A stretch of DNA of 64,000 nucleotides from Planctomycetota bacterium (lineage in GTDB: Bacteria > Planctomycetota > UBA1135 > GCA-002686595). Under the pieces are notes generated by a model, which did no database searches, was not told the DNA's origin, and saw nothing but the letters and a program-made list of their open reading frames with translations. Both the position numbers and the translations under genes were made by a program. Positions 6,618 through 13,892 of this stretch are shown in pieces. Numbering within the stretch: the first letter of the stretch is position 1; each line of letters begins with the position of its first letter. Where the stretch lies: positions 1 to 64,000 of the forward strand of contig JABACD010000007.1 of NCBI GenBank assembly GCA_014237855.1. Direction: 5' to 3'.

Positions 6618-9575
6618 ATGTCGATCCTCCACCTAGCTCTGCTCGCTCTTCTGCCCTCCATCAGTCCCCAGGAAGAGGCCGAGCCGGAGTGGCTCTGGGC
6701 CACCGCAGAGCCTGGAGCCACCGAGGATTGCTGGTTCTACCGTGAGTTCGAGGCCAGGGAGGGAGTCGAGTCCGCACTTCTGTGGACCAGCTGTGACAAC
6801 GAGCTCGAGCTCGTCATGAATGGGGTCGCCACGGCCGAGAACGACGAGTGGTCCCGAGCCGTGCATCGGGACATCACCGAGTACCTGCGCCAGGGCCAGG
6901 AGAACCGGATCGTCGCGAAGGGCCACAACCAGTCCGGGCCGGCTGGCTTCTGGTTTGAACTCCAGATCACGTACGACGACGGGACGCAGCAGCGAATCGT
7001 CAGCAACCCGGACTGGTCGGTCACACGTCAGGAGCCCAAGGGCTGGCGCAAGGAGGGCTTCGAAGTAGAGGGCTGGGACAGGCCTCACAGCTTCGGCATC
7101 CTCGGAGTCGCGCCCTGGAACGCGCCCACGTCCTTCGTCGACGGAAAACCGCCCCGGGCACTCCCGGCAGAAGAGATCATTCTTGCTGAGGGCTTTGCAG
7201 CGGATCTTGTCTACACGGTGCCGCGCAAGCTGCAGGGCTCCTGGGTCTCAATCGCACCTGGGCCCAAGGGAACGCTGTTCACCTCCGATCAGTACGGAGG
7301 AATCTACAGCGTGACCCCCTCTGCGGTGGGCGCGGGGGAGCAGGACACCCGAGTGCGCCGGCTCCCGCTTGATGTTGGGCAGGCACAGGGTCTGCTGTGG
7401 GCCTTCGGCTCGCTCTACTTCGTCGGGAGTACGGGCGACCCGGTGAGCGGGCTCTACCGGGCAGTGGATTCCGATGCTGACGGCGAGCTGGATCGCGTCG
7501 AGCTCCTGCAAGAACTCCACGGTTATGGCGAGCACGGACCTCACGCCATCCGACTCTCGCCCGATGGACAGGCCCTCTACATCATTGCTGGAAACCACAC
7601 GCAGCTGCCGCCCGTTTCATCGAGTCGCGTCCCCATGATCTGGGGCGAGGATCAGCTGCTCCCGCGTAGCCCCGATCCACGTGGGCATGCGGTGGGGGTC
7701 GAGGCTCCGGGTGGCTGGCTTTGTCGAGTGGACCCCGAGGGAAAGAACTGGGAACTGGTTTCCTGCGGCATGCGTAATGCCTACGACTTCGCCCTCAACA
7801 ACGAAGGCGAGATGTTCACCTTCGATTCGGACATGGAGTGGGATGTGGGGCTGAGCTGGTACCGCCCGACCAGGGTCTTGCACCTTGTCAGTGGCTCGGA
7901 CTTCGGGTGGCGGCATGGTTCAGGGAAATGGCCCGCCAGCTACCCTGACTCCTGGCCAGCCGTGGTGGACATTGGCCTGGCCTCCCCAACAGGCGTGGAG
8001 TTCGCACCGGCCTCATTTCCAGCGCCCTGGAACGAGAGGCTGCTGATCGCCGATTGGACCCACGGGACACTCCACGGGGTCGACATTCACCCCCGTGGAT
8101 CGAGTTACAGCGGAGAGTTCGAGCCCCTGGCCACGGGCAAGCCCCTGCAGTTCACCGACCTCTGTGCGGCTGAGGACGGAAATGTCTACTTCACCACAGG
8201 TGGCAGGCGTACCCAGTCCGCACTCTATCGATTGCGAGCCTCGGGAAAGACGAGCCCCGTTGGTCTCCAGGAGGCGAGCGCCCCGCGCATGGCCTCCGAG
8301 CGCCACCGTCGACAGCAGCTCGAGAGCCTGCACCTCTCCTTCACTCCAGAGGAGTTCGAGGAGGTTTGGATCAAGCAGGGTCAGCTCGAAGAGGTCTGGA
8401 GTTCCCTCGATGACCGTGACACCTTCCTGCGGCGAGCAGCTCGGGTGGCCCTCGAGCATCAACCCGTGCAACTGTGGCAGCAGAGGGCGCTCCAGGAAGA
8501 CAAGCCCGAGCTGAGGCTGCCCGCCATGATCGCGCTGGCACGCTGCGCGGATGAAGACCTCCGACAGGAGCTGCTTGCTGGCCTGCTGGCTCTACCCCTG
8601 GAGGAGCTTGACAATCGAAGGCTGATCGATGCGTTGAGACTGCATGCGCTGATCGTCATACGCCAGGGACCCTTGCAGGAAGCAGAGCGAGACGCTCTTC
8701 GTACGCGCTTCGAGGGTCTCTATCCCAGAGGCCAGTTCGAGGTGGACTCGGAGCTCTGTCGGGCGCTGGTCGAATTGGACTCGCCTGCCATCATCGAACG
8801 TAGCCTGGCTCTTCATGACGCCGCTGGCTCGCAGGAACAGAAGGTGCACTACCTCTTTACCCTCAAGGACCTCACGTCCGGATGGACGGCCGCACTACGC
8901 GAGCGCTATCTGGAAGCCTTCGCAGAGGCCATTGCCACCTTCGAGGGAGGTGCCAGTCTGCAGGCCTACCTGGACAGGGCACGAGCTGTGTTCCTGGATC
9001 GTCTCGATGCCGTCGAGCGTGAACGCCTCGCCCCGCTGCTCGAGGTGGCGCCGGAGCCCACCGAGGCGGTTGCCATTCCGGCGTCCTTCGTGAGGGCCTG
9101 GACCCTGGACGAGTTCGCCAGGGATCTCCAGCAGGACTGGGCGGCTCGAGACCGCGTACGTGGAAAGCTCCTGTACGAGCGAGCGACCTGCACCACCTGC
9201 CACAGGTTCGATGGTGGTGGCGGAAACACCGGCCCCGATCTGACTGCCGCCGGTTCGCGGTTCAGTCCTCGCGACCTCCTCGAGACCATCATCGATCCCA
9301 ATCTCGAGGTCTCCGATCAATACCAGGATATCGAGATCGTGACCCGCGACGAGGAGCTATTCATCGGACGTGTCGAGCTGGACAAGGATGGAGTGGTCGT
9401 GCTGCTGACCCTGCCGCCACTCGAAGAGCGTATCGAATTCGATGCGGATGAGATCGTACTCCGTCGCCCTCACGCACTCTCCAGGATGCCCGCCGGCTTG
9501 CTGGACAGCATGAAGCGCGATGAGGTTCTCGATCTGGTTGCCTACCTGATCACTGGAACCGATGGAGAGCTATGA
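6618..9575 (+). CDS. PVC-type membrane-bound dehydrogenase with C-terminal cytochrome c domain
   Basis: 985 residues from the ATG at 6618. An in-frame ATG at 6594 would add eight residues ahead of the hydrophobic signal, so 6618 is preferred because the signal peptide MSILHLALLALLPSIS begins there. Residues about 20-170 form a jelly-roll, galactose-binding-like module. Residues about 190-560 are a glucose/sorbosone-dehydrogenase-like beta-propeller (GPHAIRLSPDGQALY, RNAYDFALNNEGEMF). A helical HEAT-like stretch follows. A single heme c site, CTTCH, is at 858-862 with the PVC-specific C-terminal segment (NTGPDLTAAG). It is expected in the periplasm, oxidising an unknown organic substrate and passing electrons through heme c. 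Its last 14 bases overlap the next gene, which suggests coupled translation. Confidence 0.86.
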   Translation: MSILHLALLALLPSISPQEEAEPEWLWATAEPGATEDCWFYREFEAREGVESALLWTSCDNELELVMNGVATAENDEWSRAVHRDITEYLRQGQENRIVAKGHNQSGPAGFWFELQITYDDGTQQRIVSNPDWSVTRQEPKGWRKEGFEVEGWDRPHSFGILGVAPWNAPTSFVDGKPPRALPAEEIILAEGFAADLVYTVPRKLQGSWVSIAPGPKGTLFTSDQYGGIYSVTPSAVGAGEQDTRVRRLPLDVGQAQGLLWAFGSLYFVGSTGDPVSGLYRAVDSDADGELDRVELLQELHGYGEHGPHAIRLSPDGQALYIIAGNHTQLPPVSSSRVPMIWGEDQLLPRSPDPRGHAVGVEAPGGWLCRVDPEGKNWELVSCGMRNAYDFALNNEGEMFTFDSDMEWDVGLSWYRPTRVLHLVSGSDFGWRHGSGKWPASYPDSWPAVVDIGLASPTGVEFAPASFPAPWNERLLIADWTHGTLHGVDIHPRGSSYSGEFEPLATGKPLQFTDLCAAEDGNVYFTTGGRRTQSALYRLRASGKTSPVGLQEASAPRMASERHRRQQLESLHLSFTPEEFEEVWIKQGQLEEVWSSLDDRDTFLRRAARVALEHQPVQLWQQRALQEDKPELRLPAMIALARCADEDLRQELLAGLLALPLEELDNRRLIDALRLHALIVIRQGPLQEAERDALRTRFEGLYPRGQFEVDSELCRALVELDSPAIIERSLALHDAAGSQEQKVHYLFTLKDLTSGWTAALRERYLEAFAEAIATFEGGASLQAYLDRARAVFLDRLDAVERERLAPLLEVAPEPTEAVAIPASFVRAWTLDEFARDLQQDWAARDRVRGKLLYERATCTTCHRFDGGGGNTGPDLTAAGSRFSPRDLLETIIDPNLEVSDQYQDIEIVTRDEELFIGRVELDKDGVVVLLTLPPLEERIEFDADEIVLRRPHALSRMPAGLLDSMKRDEVLDLVAYLITGTDGEL

Positions 9576-10704
9576 CGCCATCGTGATCGGTGTTGGGGCC
9601 GTCGGGAGCGCGACTCTCAATGAGCTTGCGCGACGGGGCGCCAAGGTCCTGGGTTTGGAACGTCATGAGCCTGGACATGATCGCGGCAGCTCTCACGGAC
9701 AGACCAGGGCGATTCGCCTGGCCTATTCCGAACACCCGGACTACGTACCGCTGTTGCGGCGCACATTCGAGCTCTGGCGAGAGCTAGATGGGCGGCACAA
9801 GGCAGCTCTCTACTCCGAGTGCGGAGTTCTCGAGGCTGGGCCCGCAGGAGGGGAGCTGGTCTCTGGTGTGCTGCTCTCTGCAGAAGAGCATGGGCTGGAG
9901 GTGGAACGGATGAGCGCCAGCGCCCTGCGTGAAAGGCTCCCCGGAGTCCACCTTCCCAGGGAGATGGAGGCTCTGATCGAGCCGGTTGCCGGCTACTTGA
10001 GGGTCGAGGAGGCCATTCGGGCCATGGCACAGGAGGCTTGCGGGAGGGGCGCCAACCTGCGAACGCAGACCTGCGTGGACTCGTGGGAGGATCGGGGAGG
10101 CTCGTTTGTCGTGCACTCAGGCGCACAGAGCTGGCAGACCAGCCGCCTGCTTCTCGCTCAGGGTGCCTGGTCCTCGGCCTCCCTCTTGGAGCTGGGTATT
10201 CAGCTTGAGGTCGTCCGCAAACCCCAGCTCTGGTTTCGCACCGCGAGCAGTGACTACCTGCCGGAGGCGGGCTTCATGCCCTTCATCGTGGAGACCCTTG
10301 CTGGTGAGATTCACTATGGCTTTCCGCAGCTCGACGAACGTGGAGTCAAGGTAGCCGAGCACTCGCGAGGTGCTCCCGTGACGGACCCCTCAAGTCTCGA
10401 TCGCGAACTTCACCCACAGGACCTGACAGCGGTGACCGCCTTCCTAAGCGAGCACCTGCCCGGAATCAGCTCTGATTGTGTGGCTCATCAGGTCTGCATG
10501 TACACCAGGAGTCCGGACGAGCACTTCATTGTCGAGCGCCATCCATTGCACGAAGGACTCGTCCACGCTGCGGGCCTCTCAGGTCACGGCTTCAAGTTCG
10601 CGCCGGTGCTGGGGGAGATCCTGGCCGACCTGGCCCTCGAGCAGGGAACAGCCCATCCCATCGATTTCTTCTCCAGCGCGCGCTTCGATTCTGCGAGCTC
10701 CTGA
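9562..10704 (+). CDS. Monomeric sarcosine oxidase / N-methyl-tryptophan oxidase family flavoenzyme
   Basis: 380 residues. The FAD-binding motif GVGAVGS starts right after the initiator ATG, which supports this start. The GSSHGQTRAIRLAY segment at about 44-57 is characteristic of the MSOX/SolA group of the DAO family. Near the C-terminus QVCMYTRSPDEHF carries Cys312, at the position where MSOX attaches FAD covalently, followed by GLSGHGFKFAP. The expected reaction is oxidative demethylation of an N-methyl amino acid, giving formaldehyde and hydrogen peroxide; the actual substrate cannot be read from sequence. There is no signal peptide, so it is cytoplasmic. It overlaps the end of the exported cytochrome dehydrogenase by 14 bases, so the two are probably co-transcribed. 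It is convergent with the candidate selenoprotein gene: the two stop codons are adjacent. Confidence 0.84.
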   Translation: MESYDAIVIGVGAVGSATLNELARRGAKVLGLERHEPGHDRGSSHGQTRAIRLAYSEHPDYVPLLRRTFELWRELDGRHKAALYSECGVLEAGPAGGELVSGVLLSAEEHGLEVERMSASALRERLPGVHLPREMEALIEPVAGYLRVEEAIRAMAQEACGRGANLRTQTCVDSWEDRGGSFVVHSGAQSWQTSRLLLAQGAWSSASLLELGIQLEVVRKPQLWFRTASSDYLPEAGFMPFIVETLAGEIHYGFPQLDERGVKVAEHSRGAPVTDPSSLDRELHPQDLTAVTAFLSEHLPGISSDCVAHQVCMYTRSPDEHFIVERHPLHEGLVHAAGLSGHGFKFAPVLGEILADLALEQGTAHPIDFFSSARFDSASS

Positions 10705-11214
10705 TCAGCTACCCTCAAAGCTCGCCAGACCAAGAGCTAGCTGTTCGAGCACAGCCTCTGCGGGGATCTCGCCGGCGACTGGATTTCCATCCAGCCGGCC
10801 TGCCAGGTCCCTCGAGCTGTGATCATGCACACGCAGTACCGGGTAGCTTCCATGGGACTCACCGAAACGCCGGTAGGGCTCAGGGCGTGCCAGGGTGTCC
10901 ACGAATATCGGCACGAAGCTGCCGCTCACCAGGATGACCTGAGGGTCGCTGAGCGGACCGCTCGCGAAGGACTGGCAACCCCTTCAACCAGGGTTCTCAC
11001 CGAAGTGGACCCAGAGTGGTTTCCCAACGGCACGGGCCTGAGCAAGGGCCACCTCGTAATCAACATACCAGTCGACCCCGCCAATTCGTACCTGCATCTC
11101 ACTGGCCGCCAGGGCTCCAGAGCCGCCCATGCTCTCACTCTGGCAGCCCCCGAGGAGCGCCCCGAAGAACAGGGCTGCGCCAAGTGAGAGCGCCTGCAGT
11201 CCGGAGCTGGTCAC
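10705..11214 (-). CDS. Thioredoxin-fold lipoprotein with in-frame UGA: candidate selenoprotein with U-x-x-C motif
   Basis: 169 residues when the UGA at 10986-10984 is read as Sec. The GTG start at 11214 shares its first G with the TAG stop of the upstream oxidoreductase, with AGG about 8-10 bases ahead. Residues 1-24 are a lipoprotein signal ending LLGGC (Cys24). The sequence before the UGA, KPLWVHFGENPG, is the strand leading into a thioredoxin active site. The UGA is codon 77 and is followed by R-G-C80, giving U77-R-G-C80. After it, in the same frame, come PLSDPQV, FVPIFVDTL and the cis-Pro loop SYPVLRV (Pro125), all as expected for a Trx fold. Downstream bases form a SECIS-like hairpin. 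An ordinary gene caller would split this into two short ORFs. Alternatives are a nonsense-mutated gene or a sequencing error. Probable role: a membrane-anchored thiol or peroxide redox protein. Confidence 0.78.
10943..10986 (-). promoter_or_regulatory. Candidate bacterial SECIS element after UGA codon 77
   Basis: Counting the U of UGA as 1, bases 6-12 (GGGUUGC) pair with 38-44 (GCGACCC), with one G-U. An upper stem, 24-28 (GAGCG), pairs with 32-36 (CGCUC) and leaves loop GUC at 29-31; opening the last pair gives the pentaloop GGUCC. The apical G and U sit 25-26 bases after the UGA. This fits the bacterial SECIS model as I know it: a hairpin inside the coding region with a G near the start of the apical loop, read by SelB. 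The internal loop on the 5' side is large (11 bases), so the lower stem may not matter. Pairing was judged by eye only. Confidence 0.6.
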
Positions 11215-12524
11215 TAGAACACCTGAGTAGCGCCGGGCATGGGAATGGGGTAGCGGCCCTCTGCATCGGGCAGGCTCGGCGGGATGCCATCCCATTCATA
11301 AGCCGAGGGTACCAGCGCGAGCTCTGAGCCCATGGCCTGCTCCCAGCTGATCTCACGACCCGAGTAGGTGGCCATACGTCCGAGGATCGCCGTCAGTGTG
11401 CTCTTGGCCCCGTTCTCACTCTCGTTGTGGGGGATGTCATTGCGGATGGCATGAAACAGGCGATCGTGTTCAACCTGGTAGGCGTTGGGGACCTCGTCGC
11501 GATAGCGCCAGTCCCAACCACCAGTGCCCTCGATCCTGCCCGCGCCAACGTTGGCGCTGCCAGCCGTTCCATGCGCATGCTCCGAGACGCTGCTCCAGGC
11601 ATTCGGAATGTGCCGACACTGACTCAACAGCTTGGTGCCGTTCTCGTAGGTGTACTCGACCACGTGATGATCAAAGATCTCGCCGTACTCAGGACCTGTC
11701 CGCACCTGCCGACCGCCCTGGCCTTGGGCGCGCACGGGATAGTCACCCATGATCCAGTTGCAGACGTCGAGATTATGAATGTGCTGTTCGACGATGTGGT
11801 CACCGCAGAGCCAGTTGAAGTAGTACCAGTTGCGCATCTGATACTCCATTTCCGACTGCTCAGCTTCGCGCTGACGAACCCAGACACCGGCGCTGTCCCA
11901 GTAGGCACGCAACAAGACGATGTCACCGATCGCTCCCTCCTGGATCCTCCGAATGGTCTCCTGGTAACGAGCATCGTGATGTCGCTGGAGGCCCACACCT
12001 ACTTTCAGGCCCTTCTCGGAGGCAGCGCGCCCTGCGCGTAGAACCCGCCGAATGCCGGGCCCATCTACCGCCACGGGCTTCTCCATGAACACGTGTCGGC
12101 CCTTGTCCACTGCGTACTCGAAGTGGATCGGGCGGAATCCTGGCGGGGTGGTCAGGATGACCACATCCAGGTCGAGGTCGATCAGCTCTCGGTAGGCATC
12201 GAAGCCGACGAAGCGCCTGTCCTCAGGAACGTCCACCCTGTCGGGTTGGCTCGTCTGAAGGTTCGCCAGGCTGCCTTCGAGTCGATCACTAAAGGCATCG
12301 GCCATGGCCACCAGGCGGACATTACCCTCGGTGGAGAGCGCCTGATTTGCAGCTCCTGTTCCCCGGCCACCACAACCAATCAGACCAACTCTCAGCTCAT
12401 CATCGCCTCGCGCTACCGTCCCACTCGCTCGCAGGGGACCGGTCAGCAGGCTGGAGCCCGCCAGGGCCACCGATGAATTCCTGAGGAACTGACGACGGGA
12501 ATAACTCGATTTGGACGGAGCCAT
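11214..12524 (-). CDS. Tat-exported Gfo/Idh/MocA family oxidoreductase
   Basis: 436 residues from the ATG at 12524, preceded by GAGGA at a good distance. Longer in-frame starts exist but add sequence before the export signal. The twin-arginine signal SRRQFLR is followed by a hydrophobic stretch ending near GPLRASG. The Rossmann motif is GLIGCGGRGTGAA, and the cofactor-loop motif MEKPVAVD belongs to the family's usual EKP. HIHNLDVCNWIMGDYP and the C-terminal beta sheet are typical of the planctomycete-rich branch with Tat signals. It would be an NAD(P)-dependent sugar or cyclitol dehydrogenase working in the periplasm with a preloaded cofactor. The stop codon shares one base with the GTG of the candidate selenoprotein, so the two genes are almost surely translated together. 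Confidence 0.88.
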   Translation of the reverse strand: MAPSKSSYSRRQFLRNSSVALAGSSLLTGPLRASGTVARGDDELRVGLIGCGGRGTGAANQALSTEGNVRLVAMADAFSDRLEGSLANLQTSQPDRVDVPEDRRFVGFDAYRELIDLDLDVVILTTPPGFRPIHFEYAVDKGRHVFMEKPVAVDGPGIRRVLRAGRAASEKGLKVGVGLQRHHDARYQETIRRIQEGAIGDIVLLRAYWDSAGVWVRQREAEQSEMEYQMRNWYYFNWLCGDHIVEQHIHNLDVCNWIMGDYPVRAQGQGGRQVRTGPEYGEIFDHHVVEYTYENGTKLLSQCRHIPNAWSSVSEHAHGTAGSANVGAGRIEGTGGWDWRYRDEVPNAYQVEHDRLFHAIRNDIPHNESENGAKSTLTAILGRMATYSGREISWEQAMGSELALVPSAYEWDGIPPSLPDAEGRYPIPMPGATQVF

Positions 12525-12695
12525 GATGTCCTCGCTGGGGGGCTGGCGTTCTGGGGAGAGCTGGAAGAGCGAACTTCCTCGGTCAGCTACTCTGGCGGTC
12601 CCAGGCCTTCTTGACCAGGGGCAATTAGGTCCGTCAGCCGCCGAAATACCGTCCGGGGGGGCGACACCGGAGCGGCCATTGCTGAAAATGAAGTC

Positions 12696-13892
12696 ATGCA
12701 TCAGCTCCTTCGCGCCCTCCTGCTGCTCCTCTTGACTGCCTGTGCTTCCCCCGAAGGCAGTATCCGGCTGATCGAAACAAGGCCCCTAGAGACATCCCTG
12801 GGCAGTGAAGATCTCCCTGACTATCACGCCGTCTGGCTGGAGATGATCGATGGCTCCCAGAAGAGCCTCGACCTGGCCTACTTCTACGCCAGCAACGAGG
12901 CCGGGAGTCGGCTCGAATCCGTGATCCTGGCCATCGAGGCTGCCGCCTCCAGGGGAGTGCAGGTCCGGTTCCTGGCGGACGTCCGCTTTCACGGAACCTA
13001 TCCGGACACTCTCGATCGGCTCTCGGCCATGAACGGCTGTGAGGTTCGCCTGCTCGATCTCACGGAGCGTACCGGTGGTGTCTTGCACGCGAAGCTCCTC
13101 CTAGCCGATGGCGAGCGAACCTGCCTGGGAAGTGCCAACTTCGACTGGCGCTCCCTCGAGCACATCCAGGAGTTGGGTGTTGACGTCAGGAGCAAGGCAA
13201 TCACTGAGGCCCTGGGGAGTGTGTTTGAGCTGGACTGGGCCCTGGCCGCGGGCCAGTCGAACCAGGAGACCCTTTCCACGGAGCGACCTTTTCCTGTCGC
13301 CCTGCACGCCGCCGATCACACGGAGGTGCTCGTCACCCCTGTTGTCAGCCCTCAAGACCTCCTGAGCGACATGGTCGAGTGGGACCTTCCCCATCTCCTC
13401 AGCTGGATCGATGGTGCTGAGGATGAAGTCCTCCTTCAGGTTCTGACCTTTCGCATGCAAGGGCGTGACGGAGAGCGCTTTGAGGCCATGGAGTCCGCAC
13501 TCCTGCGAGCCGCCGCCCGTGGCGTGAAGGTCAGGCTGCTGGTCTCGGATTGGTGCAAGCGCTCTGGGACCATCGAGGATCTCCAGGCTCTCGCCAGGAT
13601 CCCCAATGTGCACATCCGCATGATGACCATTCCGCCAGCGGAGCGCGGGCACATCCCCTTCGCCAGGGTCATCCACGCCAAGTACCTGGTTGTCGATCGC
13701 TCTCGTGGCTGGATCGGTAGCAGCAACTGGGAACGATCCTATTTCCACGAGAGCCGTAACGTTGGCCTGCTCCTCGAGGGCGGGTCATTCGCCGAGAGGA
13801 TGGCGCGCTACTTCGAGGAGGGTTGGACCAGTCGATATGCGTACAAGCTTGATCCAGAGGCTACCTATCTGGCTCCACGGGTTGGGGAATAG
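12696..13892 (+). CDS. Phospholipase D / cardiolipin synthase-like lipoprotein
   Basis: 398 residues with two complete HKD motifs: His131-A-Lys...Asp in HAKLLLADGERTCLGSANFD, and His327-A-Lys...Asp in HAKYLVVDRSRGWIGSSNWE. This bilobed arrangement is that of PLD-superfamily phosphatidyltransferases and phospholipases such as cardiolipin synthase. The N-terminus is a short hydrophobic stretch ending LLLTAC (Cys16), a good lipobox, so the enzyme is probably anchored outside the cytoplasm. Most cardiolipin synthases instead have two N-terminal transmembrane helices, so this looks like an exported PLD of ClsC/YmdC-like or nuclease type; the substrate is open. It is divergent from the Gfo/Idh/MocA gene, with 171 bases between the starts, a space that must hold both promoters. 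Confidence 0.84.
   Translation: MHQLLRALLLLLLTACASPEGSIRLIETRPLETSLGSEDLPDYHAVWLEMIDGSQKSLDLAYFYASNEAGSRLESVILAIEAAASRGVQVRFLADVRFHGTYPDTLDRLSAMNGCEVRLLDLTERTGGVLHAKLLLADGERTCLGSANFDWRSLEHIQELGVDVRSKAITEALGSVFELDWALAAGQSNQETLSTERPFPVALHAADHTEVLVTPVVSPQDLLSDMVEWDLPHLLSWIDGAEDEVLLQVLTFRMQGRDGERFEAMESALLRAAARGVKVRLLVSDWCKRSGTIEDLQALARIPNVHIRMMTIPPAERGHIPFARVIHAKYLVVDRSRGWIGSSNWERSYFHESRNVGLLLEGGSFAERMARYFEEGWTSRYAYKLDPEATYLAPRVGE

Follow-up and report, generated by a model that had tools for sequence, protein, structure and literature searches.

The 64,000-nucleotide stretch of Planctomycetota DNA analysed here, hereafter the window, carries a short selenoprotein gene of a thioredoxin-like family referred to as NPGUxGC. 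We consider it highly probable (roughly 0.9), on comparative sequence evidence, that this is a true selenoprotein gene, in which a bacterial SECIS element (bSECIS) would direct the insertion of selenocysteine (Sec) at codon 77, and that the predicted product is an exported, likely lipid-anchored Thioredoxin_7 redox protein. The family extends a known kind, the Sec-containing thioredoxin-fold proteins, by a new subfamily and does not represent a new principle. A preliminary description of this DNA had proposed a membrane-anchored selenoprotein redox enzyme; the selenoprotein redox interpretation is supported by the conservation of the UGA, the presence of the Sec machinery, a bSECIS with covariation, and synonymous constraint. 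Recoding of the UGA as Sec appears close to certain.

Translation with TGA as U yields 169 residues in a single frame, from the GTG at 11214 to the TGA at 10705, with only one internal TGA, at codon 77 (10986-10984), in the context HFGENPGU-RGC; the terminal codon is likewise TGA (Table 1). This confirms the frame as given in the preliminary description, which had also correctly placed the UGA at the first active-site position (U77-R-G-C80), a lipoprotein signal before it, with the lipobox LLGG-C24, and the thioredoxin cis-Pro (Y-P125) after it. In the standard-code ORF listing of the window the gene appears as fragments only, and ordinary gene callers would accordingly break it up. The start codon is uncertain, since the n-region of the signal peptide read from the GTG contains neither Lys nor Arg, and thus no positive charge, and an alternative in-frame ATG at 11295 would add 27 residues including Arg-Arg; Cys24 and all residues beyond it are identical from either start. 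The stop of the upstream Gfo/Idh-type gene and the GTG share one base. Downstream, a convergent FAD oxidoreductase gene (9562-10704, forward strand) follows with zero gap, the two genes ending back to back in one TGATCA palindrome (10702-10707) from which each takes its TGA stop.

Table 1. Coordinates of the selenoprotein gene, its elements and its upstream neighbour in the window.
Feature	Position	Strand	Basis or remark
NPGUxGC thioredoxin_7-fold selenoprotein gene, 169 aa with Sec77	10705..11214	-	GTG start, TGA stop
In-frame UGA, read as Sec (codon 77), residue 1 of the U-x-G-C redox motif	10984..10986	-	TGA in 13/13 distinct homologues
Codon of the partner (resolving) cysteine C80	10975..10977	-	Cys in 13/13 homologues
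Codon of the thioredoxin-fold cis-Pro (Pro125), invariant G-S-Y-P-V-L-R motif	10840..10842	-	Alignment of members
Bacterial SECIS hairpin UCGCGAGCGGUCCGCUCAGCGA	10946..10967	-	RNAalifold, covariation, synonymous constraint, PMC13188914 rules
Signal peptide and lipobox LLGG-C24, predicted lipoprotein; start codon uncertain	11143..11214	-	Sequence
Gfo/Idh-type oxidoreductase gene, upstream, context only	11214..12701	-	Not conserved in relatives

When GTDB genomes were first scanned with the read-through translation as query, eight relatives were recovered; identity in their best segments is 52-67%, and each has TGA at the corresponding codon. Further searches covered 61 relatives, 154 genomes of the order, 392 of the phylum and 149 from the phylum of another member, L015. 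With the window sequence counted, the final set comprised 13 distinct sequences, drawn from 13 genomes belonging to Planctomycetota and an Armatimonadota-like group and all apparently metagenome-assembled. The U-x-G-C motif is encoded with TGA in all 13 and followed by 90-100 open codons, and the 33 codons preceding the TGA are free of stops in the ten homologues scored. None of the homologues stops at the UGA or has an unrelated residue at codon 77, and the aligned position is taken by Sec or Cys in the sister VPG[U/C] family; no Cys form was found in the high-scoring group across the genomes searched. Identity to the window protein is 47-58% among the ten aligned full-length members. The third-position excess of changes is alike on both sides of the UGA, indicating that both are translated and selected as one protein. 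Two members (L062 and L063) carry the NPGU domain in frame with an unrelated N-terminal region, in open frames of more than 500 aa, and the simple short lipoprotein form is therefore not universal in the family. The neighbourhoods of 12 loci shared nothing beyond the gene itself and its shadow frames, with two exceptions (a sulfatase-like gene in two loci and one other ORF pair), and no partner can therefore be deduced from synteny. No plasmid records encoding an NPGUxGC protein were found.

The RNA signal emerged from the same comparison. The 13 sequences align without gaps over the 31 codons after the UGA, and RNAalifold predicts for them a single hairpin, UCGC-GAGCG-GUC-CGCUC-n-GCGA, of 9 bp, with one bulged A on the 3' side and a GUC loop (or GGUCC with the last pair assigned to the loop). 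The apical sequence is GGUC, and the loop begins 24-25 nt after the UGA. Codon choice is fixed from +8 to +10, as AGC (10/10 Ser), GGT (13/13) and CCG (13/13), whereas the Gly codon directly before the UGA varies (GGC, GGG, GGT, GGA); given the protein, codons +6 to +12 show a synonymous constraint of z = 8.2, which falls to about 0 from +13 on. Pairing is retained in 99.1% of cells across 12 sequences, L063 being left out of this count as it pairs only in a bulge-less register shifted by one base; L014 has one mismatch. Compensatory double changes occur at two pairs in five cells, G-C to C-G at pair 24-36 (three sequences) and G-C to A-U at pair 26-34 (two sequences), although some may represent one event, since L016 and L103 share codon changes. 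The covariation score was reached by none of 500 shuffles, and sliding the pairing partners, used as a control, destroyed the pairing. Published bSECIS rules call for a G in the first two loop positions, a spacing of 16-37 nt and a minimum free energy of at most -7.5 (PMC13188914), and the window hairpin, at -11.2 kcal/mol, agrees with all three. Single-sequence folding of the 71 nt after the UGA gave no signal (z = 0.2), so that the hairpin is revealed by comparative analysis only; the region has no Rfam match.

Sec decoding is also provided for in the source genome (G000; 5.3 Mb, 93.7% complete), which encodes tRNA-Sec (74.7 bits; anticodon TCA according to ARAGORN), SelA (476 bits), SelB (339 bits) and SelD (321 bits). 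The last is read with one internal TGA and is probably a Sec-SelD; some 1.7 kb separate its gene from that of tRNA-Sec on contig 15 (33969-36690; L122). As SelB scored above cut-off in 58 of 61 close relatives, its co-occurrence there is uninformative, and the phylum sample was used instead: SelB was present in 12/12 homologue-bearing genomes tested (G000 and 11 others, the count leaving out G650, the genome of L103) against 235/392 (60%) in the sample.

Regarding the fold, the window protein matches Pfam Thioredoxin_7 (PF13899) at 31.7 bits against a cut-off of 27. All ten aligned members match this family, and among them the UxGC motif and Pro125 are invariant. An AlphaFold model (pLDDT 82, pTM 0.72) matches a Bacteroides cytochrome-c-biogenesis-related thioredoxin domain, Methanosarcina 3ira, AGR2, the DsbD C-terminal domain and DsbH. 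The protein is most likely exported and lipid-anchored outside the cytoplasmic membrane, a prediction in line with the membrane anchoring proposed earlier: the Cys of the lipobox column is kept in 9/10 full-length aligned members, L015 being the exception, the n-region of the window protein is weak, and L062 and L063 differ N-terminally.

The NPGUxGC family is absent from NCBIfam 20.0, and its HFGENPGUxGC signature is likewise absent from the 2026 catalogue of 119 families, which includes VPGUxxT and Trx7/PDZ (PMC13188914). The nearest curated families are VPGUxxT types 1 and 2 (NF041382 and NF041383; OS_HP5 in the selenoprotein literature), also common in Planctomycetota, which share the Thioredoxin_7 fold, a PGU with Cys three residues on (in the relatives examined), export and a UGA-encoded Sec. 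The VPGUxxT members examined, however, typically read LLFQEVPGU, many are longer, with an MsrA-like C-terminal region, and several have Cys at the site, whereas in the window family a short single-domain protein combines HFGE(N/H)PGUxGC with a GSYPVLR motif, and no Cys form was found. Trx7/PDZ (NF041199) resembles it in having a Thioredoxin_7-like domain with an active-site Sec, but is catalogued as CxxU and carries a PDZ domain; its match to the window protein is partial (20 bits; cut-off 300). The C-terminal domain of DsbD and DsbH-type proteins (PDB 1vrs, 2fwe, 2ju5, 3f9u) share the fold and a probable role as exported thiol reductants, but have CxxC in place of UxxC and about 16-21% identity, DsbD being moreover a large membrane protein. 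Sec-thioredoxin (PF00085; PMC13188914) has the same UxxC chemistry in a thioredoxin fold, yet it is thioredoxin proper, while the window protein matches PF13899 and not PF00085 and has an export signal.

The closeness to VPGUxxT raises the question of whether the window protein is a divergent short member of that family, not worth a family of its own. Both have PGUxxC, and NF041383 matches all ten members over the thioredoxin part, with E-values down to 1e-20. The scores of the window protein nevertheless fall far below the whole-protein cut-offs (43 bits against 350 for NF041382, 65 against 275 for NF041383), the matches being confined to the thioredoxin part (model positions 24-134 of 349 and 2-106 of 287, respectively) and the C-terminal part missing. 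A wide gap also runs through the profile scores (at least 198 bits as against at most 80), and in a tree built without L062 the 12 NPGU rows group together with 100/100 support on a long stem, while VPGC and VPGU sequences are interspersed; the backbone between the NPGU and VPGU groups is without resolution. Simple membership in VPGUxxT seems rather unlikely. As a separate observation, another thioredoxin-like group in the same order (L039, L045, L047, L051) has an in-frame UGA in FTRSYAxUxPCxxLESGxLS and is probably a further selenoprotein family.

As to function, export and anchoring, the reductase direction, the re-reduction partner and the substrate are points that we infer, together with the roles of the two active-site residues. 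SelB and Sec-tRNA would recode the UGA under the guidance of the bSECIS, and the product, a Thioredoxin_7-fold protein, would reach the outer face of the cytoplasmic membrane, most likely lipid-anchored. There, Sec77 would attack the oxidised substrate as a selenolate, Cys80 would act as the resolving thiol for the mixed bond, and the resulting selenenylsulfide may be re-reduced via a DsbD-like or thioredoxin electron path. The protein is most likely a disulfide (or sulfoxide-linked) reductase anchored in the membrane. Both the DsbD/DsbH-like fold and the thioredoxin-MsrA fusion of the sister VPGUxxT family speak for a reducing role, which we hold to be reasonably probable. A selenoprotein of a non-redox or oxidising kind, for example a Cu/Hg-binding or selenium-handling lipoprotein whose U-x-G-C supplies two ligands, or else a disulfide oxidase or isomerase, would fit the capacity of UxxC pairs to bind soft metals and a synteny that points to no substrate. 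This reading is improbable in view of the thioredoxin fold with its cis-Pro, the position of Sec at the nucleophilic Cys, the DsbD C-terminal and DsbH-type reductants among the nearest solved matches, and the fusion of the sister domain to an MsrA-like reductase.

In VPGUxxT relatives the thioredoxin part is often followed by an MsrA-like domain (PF01625 in L083). Nine VPGU relatives (L068, L070, L071, L072, L074, L075, L078, L084, L085) have two in-frame UGAs, the first within the thioredoxin motif and the second at the catalytic position of the fused MsrA-like domain (GMTUFW, GMSUYW or AMFUFW), and are, from their sequences, apparent double selenoproteins; the 2026 catalogue gives the VPGUxxT family one Sec (PMC13188914). 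In the Armatimonadota-like group, each of the three NPGU genomes encodes an MsrA with a UGA at the catalytic site (TFALGUFWGPD), at L119 (G650), L120 (G511) and L121 (G512), and a donor-acceptor pair of this MsrA with the NPGU protein is a lead. We regard as speculative, and doubtful at present, the broader idea that this uncatalogued Sec-only family provides, in its membrane-anchored UxGC thioredoxin domain, a stand-alone electron donor for exported, sometimes selenium-containing methionine sulfoxide reductases, as the split counterpart of the VPGUxxT thioredoxin-MsrA fusion.

Decoding of the UGA as another amino acid, through a code 4-type reassignment or near-cognate Trp read-through, would account for a read-through product that is clearly under selection. 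It is nonetheless very improbable, as the selenoprotein gene and its downstream neighbour both terminate with TGA, the Sec pathway is complete and accompanied by a canonical bSECIS, and codon 77 falls on the catalytic Cys when VPGC relatives are aligned. A recent gene breakage or sequencing error, with a Cys codon (TGC or TGT, each one base from TGA) mutated to or read as TGA, was already refuted by the occurrence of the TGA in 13 distinct homologues from 13 assemblies across phyla, with downstream protein conservation intact and the same third-position excess on both sides, and its probability is negligible.

With Sec77 read as selenocysteine, the selenoprotein catalogue gains a well-supported, bSECIS-bearing family, and the use of Sec is shown in a thioredoxin-fold protein of Planctomycetota that is predicted to be exported. 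Since callers without UGA recoding split the NPGUxGC gene, genome annotations can overlook the family. With no Cys homologue found in the clade, it offers a clean case for asking why Sec alone is used here while Sec and Cys switch in the sister family.
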